This document shows, one piece after another, positions 12,310-17,340 of a stretch of 64,000 nt of DNA. Source of the DNA: Jiangella alkaliphila (GTDB lineage Bacteria > Actinomycetota > Actinomycetes > Jiangellales > Jiangellaceae); NCBI RefSeq assembly GCF_900105925.1, contig NZ_LT629791.1, forward strand, positions 124,001 to 188,000. The letters are read 5' to 3'. Below the pieces are notes generated by a model. The model was not told the origin of the DNA. It searched no databases and saw only the letters and a program-made list of their open reading frames with translations. A program made the position numbers and the translations under genes. Within the stretch, counting starts at the first letter, position 1; the number at the start of each line of letters is the position of its first letter.

Positions 12310-12606
12310 TCAGCCGACGTGGACCTCGACGTCGGTGATGCCGACGTCGGCGACGACCGAGCGGTCGACCGTCGCGGCACCCGGCGCCAGCGTGCGCAGG
12401 GTCCAGGTGCCGGGCGCGGCGAAGAACCGGAACTGGCCGGTGGCGCTGGTCGGGACCTCGGCGGTGAACTCGCCGGTCGCGTCGAGCAGCCGCACGTAGG
12501 CGCCCGCGAGCGGCGCGTCGTCACGCTGGACGACGCCCTGGATGACGGTTTCCTTGGTCACGTCGACCCCTTCCAACGACACTCCGCCAGTGGTGGCTCC
12601 GCACAT
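12310..12606 (-). CDS. DUF1416 (SseC-like) protein
   Basis: 98-residue member of DUF1416, starting MCGATTGG as the family does and folding into a carboxypeptidase-regulatory-like beta sandwich (GVVQRDDAPLAGAYVRLLD, FFAAPGTWTLRTL). It is almost always encoded right after a thiosulfate sulfurtransferase in actinobacteria (sseC after cysA in mycobacteria). Here the gap is 5 bp. Function unproven; presumed accessory to sulfur transfer. Confidence 0.85.
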   Translation of the reverse strand: MCGATTGGVSLEGVDVTKETVIQGVVQRDDAPLAGAYVRLLDATGEFTAEVPTSATGQFRFFAAPGTWTLRTLAPGAATVDRSVVADVGITDVEVHVG

Positions 12607-12611
12607 GCCGC

Positions 12612-13460
12612 TCAGACCTTCCCGGGCTCGTCACCGAGGGCGACCGGGACGCCGACCAGCGAGCCGTACTCGGTCCACGAACCGTCGTAGTTCTTGACGT
12701 TCTGGATGCCGAGGATCTCGCGCAGCACGAACCACGTGTGCGACGAGCGCTCGCCGATGCGGCAGTAGGCGATGGTGTCCTTGCCGAAGTCGACGCCGAC
12801 CTCGCCGTACAGGGCGCGCAGCTCGTCGTCGGAGCGGAAGGTGCCGTCGTCGTTGGCCGCCTTGCTCCACGGGACGTTCGCCGCGGTCGGGATGTGGCCC
12901 GGGACCTGCGACACCTCCTGCGGCAGGTGGGCCGGGGCGAGCAGCCGGCCGGCGTACTCGTCGGGCGAGCGGACGTCGACCAGGTTCTGCGCGCCGATAG
13001 CGGCGACGACCTCGTCGCGGAAGGCGCGGATCGTGTTGTCCGGGGCCTGCGCCGTGTACGTCGTGCCCTGGCGGGACGGGACGGCGTCGACGAGCTCGCG
13101 GCTCTCCAGCTCCCAGATCTTCCGGCCGCCGTCGAGCAGGCGGACGTCGTTGTGCCCATAGACCTTGAAGTACCAATATGCGTATGCGGCGAACCAGTTG
13201 TTGTTGCCGCCGTACAGCACGACGGTGTCGTCGTTGGCGATGCCGAGGCCACTGAGCAGCGCCTCGAACTGCTCCTTGGTCACGAAGTCACGGCGGACCG
13301 GGTCGCGCAGGTCGGTCGACCAGTTGACCTTCACCGCACCGCGGATGTGGTTCTTGTCGTAGGCGGCGGTGTCCTCGTCGACCTCGACGAGCACCACCTT
13401 CGGGTTGTCGAGGTTCTGCTCGACCCAGTCGGCCGAGACGAGGCTGGACTCGCGGCTCAT
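12612..13460 (-). CDS. Thiosulfate sulfurtransferase (two-domain rhodanese)
   Basis: 282-residue tandem rhodanese. The N-terminal domain is structural and the C-terminal domain holds the catalytic Cys233 in AYCRIGERSSHTW, the same loop as mycobacterial CysA2. It moves sulfane sulfur from thiosulfate to thiol acceptors. ATGA overlap (4 bp) with the upstream DUF4395 gene and a 5-bp gap to DUF1416 make an operon headed by a cysteine-type leader peptide. Confidence 0.93.
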   Translation of the reverse strand: MSRESSLVSADWVEQNLDNPKVVLVEVDEDTAAYDKNHIRGAVKVNWSTDLRDPVRRDFVTKEQFEALLSGLGIANDDTVVLYGGNNNWFAAYAYWYFKVYGHNDVRLLDGGRKIWELESRELVDAVPSRQGTTYTAQAPDNTIRAFRDEVVAAIGAQNLVDVRSPDEYAGRLLAPAHLPQEVSQVPGHIPTAANVPWSKAANDDGTFRSDDELRALYGEVGVDFGKDTIAYCRIGERSSHTWFVLREILGIQNVKNYDGSWTEYGSLVGVPVALGDEPGKV

Positions 13461-13900
13461 GACGCGACCTCCGTGGTGTTGGGTTGGGATGGGAACAGAC
13501 GCCGGTAGGCGAGGTAGATCTCGCAGCCCAGGCAGAAGCCGAAGGCGGCGTTGAGGAACGCCGCGGCCAGCGCGGCCGCGACGGCGACGTACGCGACGAC
13601 GGTCAGCCCGGTGGCGAAGGCGATGACGCCGGCGACGGCGAACACCAGCCCGACGGCCTGGGCGAACCGCGGCGGCGCGGCGTCTTCGAGCTCGCCGGGC
13701 GGACCGAGCCGGGGCCGGACGAGCTTCGCGTACAGCAGCCCGTACGGCGCCCGCGGCAGCCCGAGCAGCGCTCCGGCCGCGAACACCAGGCCCTGGACGG
13801 CCAGCAGCCAGGCGCTGCCGGTGACCAGGACGACCGCGAGCACGACGGTGGTGAGCGCGGCCGCGAACCGGGGACCCCTGGGGTCGATGCGAGTCGGCAT
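13457..13900 (-). CDS. DUF4395 membrane protein
   Basis: 147-residue integral membrane protein with about four helices; DUF4395 family. A CxxC pair in GFCLGCEIYL sits near the cytoplasmic end of the last helix and could exchange electrons or sulfur with the adjacent thioredoxin-like protein or sulfurtransferase. First long gene of the leader-peptide operon; translationally coupled to the sulfurtransferase. Confidence 0.8.
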   Translation of the reverse strand: MPTRIDPRGPRFAAALTTVVLAVVLVTGSAWLLAVQGLVFAAGALLGLPRAPYGLLYAKLVRPRLGPPGELEDAAPPRFAQAVGLVFAVAGVIAFATGLTVVAYVAVAAALAAAFLNAAFGFCLGCEIYLAYRRLFPSQPNTTEVAS

Positions 13901-13981
13901 GGTCCTCCTGACGTGGACGAGACGGGATGAGTCGTCAGGAACGGCGCGGCCGAGCGAACGCGCGGGCGGGACCGTTCCCCG

Positions 13982-14056
13982 TCAGGGCAGACAGAGCATG
14001 GACGCGGCGCGACCGAAGTCGATGGCGCGGCGCTTCCAGAGCTCTGTGCGGAACAT
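13982..14056 (-). CDS. 24-residue cysteine-type leader peptide
   Basis: Short ATG-TGA frame whose product contains KRRAIDFGRAASMLC followed by LP and stop. It has the R-R-x-x-D-x-x-R-x-A-S-x-x-C pattern of actinobacterial sulfur-operon leader peptides (the Ms5788A-like group, described upstream of cysA/sse-type operons). Ribosome stalling at the C-terminal Cys codon when cysteinyl-tRNA is scarce would then control the DUF4395-sulfurtransferase-DUF1416 operon 81 bp downstream. There is no ribosome binding site; a promoter places transcription start on the ATG. Confidence 0.75.
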   Translation of the reverse strand: MFRTELWKRRAIDFGRAASMLCLP

Positions 14057-14063
14057 GGGCACG

Positions 14064-14092
14064 AGCGTACGGCCACGAAACACCGTCGTCAC
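14064..14092 (-). promoter_or_regulatory. Leaderless promoter of the sulfur operon
   Basis: On the minus strand: -35 GTGACG (14092-14087), 17-bp spacer, -10 TACGCT (14069-14064), then 7 nt to the leader-peptide ATG. The expected transcription start coincides with the A of ATG. Confidence 0.6.
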
Positions 14093-14138
14093 CGGTCGTA
14101 TCAAATAACGAGATCTGCCGTCTCGGGATCCGGCCAAA

Positions 14139-14579
14139 TCAGACAGGAAGCGCCGCACGGACGTCGGCCAGCCGCGGCGCGCCGGTGGCCCGGCGGACGA
14201 TCCGGCCGCTGCCGTCGAGCACCAGTGTGGTGGGTGTGCGCAGGATGTTCAGCCGGCGGACGAGGTCGAGGTGGTGCTCGGCGTCGATCTCGACGTGGAC
14301 GACACCGTCGGTGTCGGCGGCGACGTGCCTCAGCGTCGCCCGGGCCGCCCGGCACGGCTGGCAGAACGCCGTCGAGAACTGCACCAGCGTGGCCCGTTCG
14401 CCCAGCGCCGCGCCCAGTTCGTCGGGGCCCAGCAGGTCGTCCACCCTCGCCTCCGTCACCCGGCCGTCGCGGGCCCGCCGCCACAGCCCGAACGCCGTGG
14501 CGGCCGCGAGCACGGCGACGACGACCACCAGTCCTGTCACACCGGGGACAACGCGCCCGCCACGCCGGTCGATTCCCAC
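14139..14579 (-). CDS. Membrane-anchored thioredoxin-like protein
   Basis: About 146 residues: an N-terminal transmembrane helix (VTGLVVVVAVLAAATAFGLW) and a thioredoxin fold with the active-site pair in FCQPC and cis-Pro in LRTPTTLVL. Related to the ThiX-type thioredoxins found next to CysA2 in mycobacteria; probably a membrane-bound thiol-disulfide or persulfide reductant for the sulfur enzymes. The start is uncertain: GTG at 14579 or GTG at 14540. It precedes the leader-peptide promoter, so it belongs to a separate transcript. Confidence 0.8.
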   Translation of the reverse strand: MGIDRRGGRVVPGVTGLVVVVAVLAAATAFGLWRRARDGRVTEARVDDLLGPDELGAALGERATLVQFSTAFCQPCRAARATLRHVAADTDGVVHVEIDAEHHLDLVRRLNILRTPTTLVLDGSGRIVRRATGAPRLADVRAALPV

Positions 14580-14593
14580 CGGAACGGACTGAT

Positions 14594-15640: not shown

Positions 15641-17065
15641 ATGAGCAACACACGCGGCCGCCGCCTCGCGGCGCTGCTGGCCGTCGCCGCGGTCGCCCTG
15701 ACGGCGTGCGGCGACGACTCGGATCCGTCGGCTGAGGAGACCAGCACCGAGGCTGCGAGCGAGGCGCCGACGGACGAACCGTCCACCCCGGAGGAGACCA
15801 CGCCGGAGTTCAGCTGCCCGCCGGAGCTCGGCGAGCGGCTGCCCGAGGGCCTGGACCCGGACGCGTGCTGGTCCCACCCCGACCTGGAGCGCCCGGCGCT
15901 GATCGACGGCACCGTGTTCGCCCTCGAGCCCGACGCCTCCGACCCCACGACGGATCGCCACATCATCGCGCTCGACGCCGAGACCGGTGAGCGGCTGTGG
16001 AAGTCCGAGGTGCTGCCCGGCGAGGTGTCGGCGCTGCGGGCCACCGAGGTCGACGGCGCGCCCGGCGTCGCCGTCGTGGTCACCGAGAACGACTCCGGCG
16101 ACGCGCTGACCGAGGCGTCGGCGGCCTGGGGCTACCTGGCCTGGCCGGCCGACGCGGGTGGCGACGAGGGCGGCGACGCCGGCAGCGCGGATCCCGGCTT
16201 CGAGGCCGAGGTGCACATCACCGCGCCTCAGTCCGAGGTCGCGGCGACGGACGTCTACTGGACCGACCAGGGTGTTCTGGCCGGTGACCAGTTCCTCGCG
16301 CCGGACGCCAGCGAGTTCACCACGGTGAACCGCGACCCGGAGCCGATGCTCGTGGGCGACTACGACCTGGAGGAGACCTTCACCGGGGCGTCCGGCGACC
16401 TGCTGCTCTCCTACGTCCGCGGCGTCGCCTGGCTGCCCGACGGCCCGTCGGACGGCGAGACCTACGTCGGCTGGCTGGCCCGCACCGCCGACGGCGCCGA
16501 GGCATGGAACGCGGTGACGTCGACCCCCAACGAGGAGGACAGCCTGTTCGGCGAGGGCCCCAGCCAGTTCGCCATCATCGTCGGGTCGTATCTGCTCACC
16601 ATCACCCCGACCGACGAAAACTACACGGCGTTCGAGCTGAGCTGGCTCGACGCCGCCACGCACGCGCCCGCCACGCCGGCCCCGGCCGACCTCGAAGGCG
16701 CCGAGCCGACCGTCGTCGTGACCGACATCATGGCCGACCCCACCGCACTGCTGTCGCCTGACGGGCGCCACCTGTTCGCCTCGTGGTCGACGCTGGCGCT
16801 GGTCATCGACATCGAGTCCGGAGCGGTCACGCGCGTGCCGACCGACTTCGACGTCTACGGCACGGCGATCGACGACCAGACGTTCTTCGGCTCGACCGAG
16901 AACGGGTCGCTGACGATCGACCTGGCCAGCGGCGAGGCGGCGGCGATCGAGGCGCCGCGGCAGCCCTTCGACGCCGTCGACGGCGACTACGGAATAGCGG
17001 TCCTGGAGGGCGCGGTGGGCGAGACGTACTACCTGGTCGGCGGCCGCCGCACGGCCGCGGAATAG
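15641..17065 (+). CDS. Hypothetical lipoprotein with PQQ-like beta-propeller character
   Basis: 474-residue lipoprotein: signal with lipobox ALTAC (Cys23), then a Glu/Thr/Ser-rich linker (to about 60) and a beta-rich domain with repeats such as HIIALDAETGERLWKSE, typical of PQQ-like propeller blades. No catalytic site seen; perhaps a scaffold or binding protein on the outer face of the membrane. ATG at 15641 has AGAGAGG 10 nt upstream. The 3' end overlaps the 3' end of the MoaD-like gene. Confidence 0.7.
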   Translation: MSNTRGRRLAALLAVAAVALTACGDDSDPSAEETSTEAASEAPTDEPSTPEETTPEFSCPPELGERLPEGLDPDACWSHPDLERPALIDGTVFALEPDASDPTTDRHIIALDAETGERLWKSEVLPGEVSALRATEVDGAPGVAVVVTENDSGDALTEASAAWGYLAWPADAGGDEGGDAGSADPGFEAEVHITAPQSEVAATDVYWTDQGVLAGDQFLAPDASEFTTVNRDPEPMLVGDYDLEETFTGASGDLLLSYVRGVAWLPDGPSDGETYVGWLARTADGAEAWNAVTSTPNEEDSLFGEGPSQFAIIVGSYLLTITPTDENYTAFELSWLDAATHAPATPAPADLEGAEPTVVVTDIMADPTALLSPDGRHLFASWSTLALVIDIESGAVTRVPTDFDVYGTAIDDQTFFGSTENGSLTIDLASGEAAAIEAPRQPFDAVDGDYGIAVLEGAVGETYYLVGGRRTAAE

Positions 17066-17340
17066 AACGGCAGCGGGCTGCTCCCGCCGGCGAACGGCGG
17101 GAGCAGCTCGATCGCCGCGCCCTCGCGCAGGACGACGGTGGCGGGGTCGCGCGACCCAGCGGGGGTGCCGTCGACGACGACGGCGCAGATGTCCAGGACG
17201 GCGGCGAAGCGGGGGCTGTCGCGGTGCGCCGAGCGGGCCTCCGCCAGTGCTTCGGCGAGCGTGCCGGCGTCGACGACCTCCGCGGGGATGCCCGCCGCCG
17301 CGCGGATGGCGGCCCAGTACCTCAGCGTCACCTTCGCCAT
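17029..17340 (-). CDS. MoaD/ThiS-like ubiquitin-fold sulfur carrier with C-terminal extension
   Basis: 103-residue beta-grasp protein starting MAKVTLRYWAAIRAAAG, typical of actinobacterial MoaD-like sulfur carriers. Carriers normally end in Gly-Gly, which is activated as thiocarboxylate. Here LLPPFAGG is present but is followed by 17 more residues (SSPLPFYSAAVRRPPTR) before the stop. Either the tail must be cleaved or the protein is not a carrier. The codons for the GG lie in a hairpin that also serves as terminator for the convergent lipoprotein gene, and the gene overlaps that gene by 37 bp. Confidence 0.75.
   Translation of the reverse strand: MAKVTLRYWAAIRAAAGIPAEVVDAGTLAEALAEARSAHRDSPRFAAVLDICAVVVDGTPAGSRDPATVVLREGAAIELLPPFAGGSSPLPFYSAAVRRPPTR
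17077..17107 (+). terminator. Terminator hairpin inside the MoaD-like gene
   Basis: Perfect 13-bp stem GCTGCTCCCGCCG / CGGCGGGAGCAGC with a GCGAA loop, 12 bp after the lipoprotein stop codon. It lies within the coding region of the convergent MoaD-like gene. Confidence 0.65.

Follow-up and report, generated by a model that had tools for sequence, protein, structure and literature searches.

Mycobacterial leaders of the Ms5788A type, which are polycysteine and leaderless, reportedly act as cysteine-responsive attenuators (Canestrari et al. 2020, Mol Microbiol 114:93-108). A study of 2005 predicted cysteine leaders in front of mycobacterial sulfur operons (PMC1262725), ribosome profiling showed in 2015 a leader before the cysA2/Msmeg_5788 genes which was first noted there (PMC4633059), and several cysteine biosynthetic genes of M. 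smegmatis are under translation attenuation (PMC13236596). As leaders of this kind have already been described in mycobacteria, the one in the window is not new in itself.

The leader locus and its promoter

The window, that is the whole stretch of 64,000 nucleotides of Jiangella alkaliphila DNA that was analysed, contains on its minus strand a short frame of 24 codons starting with the ATG at 14056, with a TGA stop ending at 13982. The frame carries the pattern RRxxDxxRxASxxC, the Cys of which is codon 22. From its stop there are 81 nt to the ATG of the DUF4395 gene at 13900, which is preceded by AGGAGG, and the gene order after the leader is DUF4395, a two-domain sulfurtransferase and DUF1416. 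The frame with its near-terminal Cys and its place 81 bp before these three genes had been proposed in the preliminary description; the frame and the distance are found as such in the minus-strand sequence, and Pfam backs the three genes. The features of the locus are:

14087..14092, minus strand: -35 element GTGACG; NTGACN 17-18 nt before the -10 element in 21/21 family loci
14064..14069, minus strand: -10 element TACGCT; TANNNT 6-7 nt before the ATG or GTG in 21/21 family loci
13982..14056, minus strand: leader peptide frame, MFRTELWKRRAIDFGRAASMLCLP plus stop; read as an open reading frame, conserved in 21/22 family genomes
13991..13993, minus strand: UGU, codon of the sensor Cys, nine codons downstream of the conserved Asp
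13457..13900, minus strand: DUF4395 gene (Pfam PF14340, E 1.7e-46)
12612..13460, minus strand: sulfurtransferase gene with rhodanese domains (Pfam PF00581 Rhodanese, E 1.3e-32)
12310..12606, minus strand: DUF1416 gene (Pfam PF07210, E 3.2e-38)

The promoter elements GTGACG and TACGCT are separated in the window by a spacer of 17 nt, as had been described, and the -10 element sits 7 nt before the leader ATG. From this geometry the start of transcription is expected on the ATG or within about one base of it. The combination of TANNNT (5-8 nt before the leader start) with NTGACN (16-19 nt further up) occurs in 21/21 loci of the window's family and at 0/6841 positions of upstream background regions. 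Because of this difference we consider it likely that the transcript starts on the leader AUG, and the leaderless start that had been predicted fits this conserved promoter geometry. In the wider set TANNNT precedes one or more of the possible leader starts by 5-8 nt in 76/77 loci, a count for which several starts were tried per locus and which stands without a background run.

A search of the region 13800-14300 revealed no intrinsic terminator between the leader and DUF4395. The sole terminator-like site of this region, at 14125-14109, is located upstream of the leader promoter. This hairpin comes after a thioredoxin-like gene (14142-14591) and is consistent with a separate transcript beginning at the leader. 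Rfam covariance models gave no match up to E 1 in 13800-14300. Near the operon the window also holds a small MoaD-like gene (17032-17340, weak matches).

Leader peptide and sensor codon

The sulfurtransferase was found in 22/22 genomes of the window's family, and DUF4395 together with the leader in 21 of them, in which the peptide is nearly unchanged. In the 22nd genome (L025), the sulfurtransferase of which is 53% identical, neither DUF4395 nor the leader was found. For a wider comparison contigs were scanned for the sulfurtransferase and the best 80 of 575 loci were kept, among them loci of Nocardioides, Micromonospora, Streptomyces, Nonomuraea and others. A related leader is present in all of these 80 loci, the first pattern detecting 78 of them and a looser one the remaining two, L067 and L100, which both have Leu in place of the last Arg; directly 5′ of the leader of L067 lies, judged by eye, a frame whose C terminus (LPPFAGG) resembles that of the MoaD-like gene in the window. 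L041, taken as a duplicate of the family locus L010, does not enter the codon counts.

The common form of the leader among these best 80 of 575 loci is LTKRRAVDxCRVxxxLCR. A Cys follows VDx in 77/77 of the wider leaders, taken from the same 80 loci, whereas in the window's family this position (VDx+1) is occupied by Gly (15) or Arg (6) and the terminal Cys alone remains. Each of the 21 family leaders has a single Cys and there is no cysteine run, so that they are not "Cys-rich" in the sense of the Ms5788A family. For 74 distinct leaders pN/pS is 0.385. The Arg, Arg, Asp and Arg residues of RR.VD..R are unchanged in these 74 leaders and their synonymous sites vary (pS 0.20-1.16); the selection pattern demands these Arg and Asp, and their invariance is partly by choice. 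Judged from these substitutions the leader is under constraint at the peptide level.

Such a constraint brings up the possibility of a nascent-chain arrest. In TnaC-type arrest peptides the nascent chain stalls the ribosome from the exit tunnel, and RR.VD..R could act there likewise and help to stall the ribosome at the cysteine codon, in which case the sensing of cysteine, or of a related thiol, could take place at the ribosome itself and not only via tRNA charging. We regard this explanation as possible, though rather doubtful. It agrees with the 78/80 contig-scan loci (best 80 of 575) that fit the Arg/Asp pattern while the codons there vary synonymously (pS 0.2-1.2, 74 leaders), and with the distance from Asp to Cys, which is nine codons in 98/98 leaders even though the pattern permitted other spacings. 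The Leu found in L067 and L100 shows on the other hand that the last Arg is not strictly required. The motif is moreover common to leaders before many different genes, and arrest would also suit those leaders that precede cysteine dioxygenase.

Several such leaders are present in the window's own genome, where four more were found which have the same motif and a Cys nine codons after the Asp. By eye the frames chosen as following them resemble a symporter of the dicarboxylate type, a cysteine dioxygenase (L029, G000:C1:4501685-4501738) and two solute-binding proteins, the assignment of one of which is uncertain since it lies 435 nt from its leader. In a sample of the whole phylum the leader model matches 16/296 genomes, all 16 within the window's class. 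Class-wide, Pfam analysis of 111 downstream frames gave DUF4395 (29), sulfite or nitrite reductase domains (18), rhodanese (15), cysteine dioxygenase (8, preceded by the same UGU leader motif as L029), PALP (7, by eye cysteine synthase-like), PAPS reductase (6), luciferase-like monooxygenase (5), family-5 binding proteins (5) and others. At Micromonospora loci such as L053 and L056 the leader lies about 200 nt before the sulfurtransferase; no DUF4395 gene was found between the two, and no leader-end pairing. Loci without DUF4395 often have spacers of 150-250 nt.

The leader in the window scores 19.9 bits (E 0.00043) with NF042933, the Ms5788A family Cys-rich leader peptide, which has a cut-off of 45, and as a protein 17 bits (15 bits in the genome search) with NF042934, a putative leader peptide with a cut-off of 27. 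The preliminary description had placed this leader outside the gene lengths that callers report. Leaders of this sort are not missed entirely by annotation, since these two NCBIfam models exist for the kind, but the leader in the window stays under both cut-offs. Its position before DUF4395, rhodanese and DUF1416, the Ms5788A operon type, is that of the NF042933 kind.

The most regular element of the leaders is the spelling of the terminal cysteine codon. It is TGT in 98/98 sulfurtransferase-operon leaders (21 family, 77 wider) and likewise in L067 and L100, which were missed by the pattern, stand outside the 98 and were added separately, giving 100/100. At other places cysteine is spelled differently: the inner Cys of the 77 wider leaders is TGC in 74, a Cys two codons before the sensor is TGC in 30/30 cases where it is present, and 104/105 cysteine codons in the sulfurtransferase genes that follow these 98 leaders are TGC. 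The four other leaders of the own genome have TGT at the sensor (4/4).

The rule was followed through the class by seeking NF042934 matches in 197 genomes, 143 of which had a match, and by examining 130 leaders from 88 genomes among the matches listed (30 returned and 100 further ones, roughly in listed order). Among these listed matches the codon nine after the Asp is TGT in 129/130 leaders; the sole exception, L216, has AGC (Ser) at the sensor place and the same leader motif. At Asp+2 the cysteines of the class-wide leaders are TGC 57 times and TGT 3 times, and the other cysteines between Asp+1 and Asp+15 of the 130 leaders are TGC 153 times and TGT 30 times (153/183 UGC). Near parity is observed only just after the sensor, with TGC 8 and TGT 5 at Asp+10 and 7 and 6 at Asp+11. 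Two of the 130 loci had no downstream frame, and 17 of the remaining 128 frames were removed by eye as wrong-frame or unclear, leaving 111; cysteines are TGC 209 and TGT 21 in these 111 frames, and 244 and 36 over all 128. Fisher tests, in which relatedness is ignored, gave 3e-45 for the sensor against Asp+2 and 1e-73 against the 128 downstream frames. Even in six leaders with a cysteine run (L121, L122, L124, L125, L128, L150), which from their look only we take for mycobacterial, the sensor is TGT in 6/6 and the preceding codon is TGC in 5/6. A pure arrest peptide would be indifferent to UGU or UGC, yet no UGC is seen at the sensor, which speaks against an explanation by the nascent chain alone.

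The base following UGU is also biased, being C in 101, T in 23, A in 4 and G in 1 of 129 leaders. This is a pyrimidine in 124/129, and in 57/62 when the next residue is not Arg. The bases after the cysteine codons of the 111 downstream frames are G 101, C 77, A 34 and T 18 (pyrimidine 95/230); these frames served as background, the sulfurtransferase genes having been dropped for their few cysteine sites with a fixed neighbour. Searches with one exact pattern each revealed a single tRNA-Cys with the anticodon GCA and none with ACA, and for this reason UGU would be decoded by wobble. The 3′ neighbour base affects the reading of a codon, and a wobble-read UGU followed by a pyrimidine could be the weakest cysteine signal that is available. 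The simplest reading of the codon counts is that UGU is kept by selection for a weakly read codon.

One could instead argue that UGU is retained for a reason at the RNA level, for example a helix that GCUCUGU and ACAGAGC form within the leader, and not for decoding. The cysteine codon of the family indeed sits in an almost invariant internal helix. However, ACC replaces ACA in 4/21 family loci, and in the wider set the codons flanking UGU vary synonymously while UGU stays, a comparison that covers the possible partners in part. Over 74 distinct leaders pS and pN are both 0 at the sensor codon, and the other codons have pS values of 0.2-1.2. Since the codons on either side of UGU vary at synonymous sites, an RNA helix common to all leaders is unlikely, and altogether we think it quite improbable that UGU is kept for pairing.

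No statement of the UGU rule was found in the literature searched, though Canestrari et al. 2020 may contain one. The rule is not general to cysteine attenuators, since the cysteine uORF of the Rhodobacterales has mostly UGC (PMC8632094).

Pairing of the leader end with the Shine-Dalgarno region

The end of the leader can base-pair with the Shine-Dalgarno region of DUF4395, and additional helices can form in the space between them. The RNA elements in the window, as obtained from the sequence and from folding, are:

13980..13986, minus strand: P1 5′ arm CCUGACG; leader end, stop codon and two bases, complementary to the Shine-Dalgarno region
13971..13979, minus strand: P2 5′ arm GGGAACGGU; from the minimum free energy structure, directly after the P1 arm
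13937..13945, minus strand: P2 3′ arm GCCGUUCCU; pairs with GGGAACGGU; relatives have variants altered in both arms
13933..13940, minus strand: second anti-Shine-Dalgarno copy UCCUGACG (P3 arm); four bases shared with the P2 3′ arm
13904..13913, minus strand: Shine-Dalgarno AGGAGG of DUF4395 and target of P1 and P3, CGUCAGGAGG; from the sequence

In the window the leader-end sequence CCUGACG has its partner, CGUCAGG, at the Shine-Dalgarno sequence. Leader end and Shine-Dalgarno region can form an uninterrupted run of at least 7 Watson-Crick pairs in 21/21 family loci, compared with 33/812 random windows of the same loci, and folding gave a P1 pairing probability of 0.93-1.0 in 20 of these loci and of 0.69 in L018. 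Thus by pairing as well as by folding the leader region is able to mask the ribosome-binding site of the next gene, as an attenuator would. The six core pairs of P1 are invariant and consequently there is no covariation. In the window's genus the second copy UCCUGACG is present, which by its sequence would be able to mask the Shine-Dalgarno sequence too. The leader RNA of the window folds with a z of -2.44, 2/200 shuffles being equally stable.

Of P2 at least 8 bp (G-U allowed) can form in 18/21 family loci, and 7, 6 and 5 bp in L016, L023 and L024, respectively. Forms altered on both sides are GGGAACGG/CCGUUCC(U), GGGAGCGG/CCGCUCCC and CGGAGCGG/CCGCUCCG, and further ones are GGGAGCCG/CGGCUCCC and GGGAACGCC/GGCGUUCCC. 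For the single locus P2 is weak, its own score being reached by 0.3-43% of the shuffled spacers. Own against swapped arms score 21.3 vs 16.9 in genus g5 and 21.7 vs 22.0 in genus g1, where the arms are nearly identical. The RNAalifold consensus on the MAFFT alignment recovered P1 and the internal leader helix, but not P2.

Outside the family a leader-end pairing of at least 7 bp is found in 7/77 loci (from the best 80 of 575), compared with 168/2974 random windows. As a rule for the whole class the pairing thus failed, being no commoner there than by chance, and because it is at the random level in the non-family loci the leaders outside the family must, by these counts, use another switch or a weaker form of the same one. 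Possibly the stalled or terminating ribosome alters a Rho-dependent termination in the spacer and not the access to the Shine-Dalgarno sequence. Such transcriptional attenuation or polarity would accord with the random level of pairing and with the long spacers of the loci without DUF4395, and Rho-dependent termination was suggested for the mycobacterial cys leaders (PMC1262725). The missing intrinsic terminator after the leader in the window argues against transcriptional attenuation, with no bearing on Rho. For the family, however, this reading leaves aside the pairing of the leader end with the Shine-Dalgarno sequence in 21/21 loci, and we consider it unlikely as an account of the operon.

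Returning to the masking of the Shine-Dalgarno sequence, its accessibility was modelled with ribosomes at different positions, the temperature being either 37 C, with 40 nt of the gene included, or 30 C, with 20 nt included. When UGU is in the A site, the leading edge of the ribosome lies at about 12-13 nt. With this edge no more than 6 nt beyond the first base of UGU, the 30 C scan gave a mean accessibility over the 21 loci of 0.15-0.20; the value rose to 0.26 at 8 nt and to 0.33-0.35 at 10-14 nt, and was again 0.26 at 16 nt. With the edge at 20 nt or more, corresponding to a ribosome at the stop codon, it was 0.03-0.04 in the window's genus and 0.25-0.30 outside of it. For the genus the modelled accessibility is 0.17 in the free RNA, 0.35 with the ribosome stalled at Cys and 0.03 with the ribosome at the stop codon; after shuffling of the spacer (12 shuffles per locus) the respective values are 0.17, 0.28 and 0.28. 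As shuffling lifts the accessibility at the stop codon from 0.03 to 0.28, the spacer seems, in these models, to be shaped for closing the Shine-Dalgarno site when the ribosome is at the stop.

The opening in the Cys-stalled state varies with the settings. In the model at 30 C, which includes 20 nt of the gene, this state was more open than the free RNA in 17/21 loci, with L012 being opposite. In the one at 37 C, which includes 40 nt, it was more open by over 0.05 in 11/21 loci (4/12 in the window's genus) and less open by at least 0.1 in several, e.g., L007, L009 and L013. In the models the opening of the Shine-Dalgarno site is thus modest (0.15 to 0.34) and setting-dependent.

Proposed mechanism and relation to known leaders

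We think it probable, going by the sequences and the folding models, that a cysteine-responsive translational attenuator which masks the Shine-Dalgarno sequence controls DUF4395, the sulfurtransferase and DUF1416. The transcript would begin on the leader AUG. With ample Cys-tRNA the ribosome would pass the single UGU, terminate two codons later and depart, whereupon the released leader end CCUGACG would pair with the Shine-Dalgarno region of DUF4395 and keep the operon low; while the ribosome is still at the stop codon, the second anti-Shine-Dalgarno copy would, in the window's genus, hold the site closed. If Cys-tRNA runs short, the ribosome would wait with UGU in the A site, its edge covering the P1 arm and leaving the P2 arm free. 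P2 could then sequester the second copy, so that the Shine-Dalgarno sequence would be open and DUF4395, sulfurtransferase and DUF1416 would be made. UGU with the following pyrimidine would be kept as a poorly read cysteine codon which tRNA-Cys(GCA) reads by a G-U wobble. Because RR.VD..R and UGU are in a fixed register, the nascent chain would seem to help in stalling.

That a cysteine-type leader attenuates the sulfurtransferase operon, as had been proposed from the single sequence, fits the conserved leader with its Cys, the complementarity to the Shine-Dalgarno sequence in 21/21 family loci and the operon type, which is that of cysA2/Msmeg_5788 (PMC4633059). The RNA argues for an attenuation that in the family would be translational, by masking of the Shine-Dalgarno sequence. 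A point against the attenuator are the same-motif leaders preceding cysteine dioxygenase, where induction by cysteine shortage is not expected; this enzyme consumes cysteine and the direction of control at its leaders may differ.

For the class as a whole we tentatively put forward, with somewhat less than even confidence, that the leaders before many sulfur genes share one sensor site, a UGU followed by a pyrimidine nine codons after the Asp of RR.VD..R from which UGC is excluded, and that the synonymous spelling is a part of the sensor. This site might read the wobble decoding by tRNA-Cys, i.e., its charging and possibly a sulfur-dependent tRNA modification, the nascent peptide might deepen the pause, and the single codon might do the work of the mycobacterial cysteine runs. 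With this locus the cysteine-responsive leaders, described in mycobacteria in a polycysteine form, would gain a form that has one codon and a legible RNA gate. The sensor position also follows a strict rule on synonymous codons, observed for leaders from 88 genomes of one class. If this rule is functional, one silent change from UGU to UGC would show whether the attenuator uses wobble decoding to sense shortage, with one tRNA reading both codons. A UGU followed by a pyrimidine nine codons after the Asp is in addition a simple handle for finding unannotated cysteine-controlled operons.

Several described leaders can be set beside the one in the window. The uORFC-8-2 before cysS of the Rhodobacterales also has cysteine codons in a leader frame and a proposed ribosome-mediated control, but its cysteine codons are in tandem (PMC8632094), UGC is dominant and there is an intrinsic terminator. 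The candidate cys leaders of Mycobacterium, P. acnes and B. longum (PMC1262725) are closer, being short frames that have their cysteine codons close to the stop, precede actinobacterial sulfur genes and lack a terminator; they differ in their runs of cysteine codons, and the mode of regulation is left open in that paper. With NF042934, a putative leader peptide classed as cis_reg_atten, the leader shares the motif in a match that ends on the Cys (E 0.0033, profile positions 3-19 of 19), although its 17 bits do not reach the cut-off of 27. The closest likeness is to the mycobacterial leaders of the Ms5788A type, with which it has in common the operon type, the leaderless frame (here predicted), a related peptide motif and a cysteine codon near the stop. 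Unlike these it carries a single cysteine codon and no run, scores under the NF042933 cut-off and has, in the window's genus, a second anti-Shine-Dalgarno copy, and unlike its relatives with an internal Cys (VDxC) the window's family has Gly or Arg at this place. By position and motif, the leader of the window is a divergent relative of the mycobacterial Ms5788A-type leaders.
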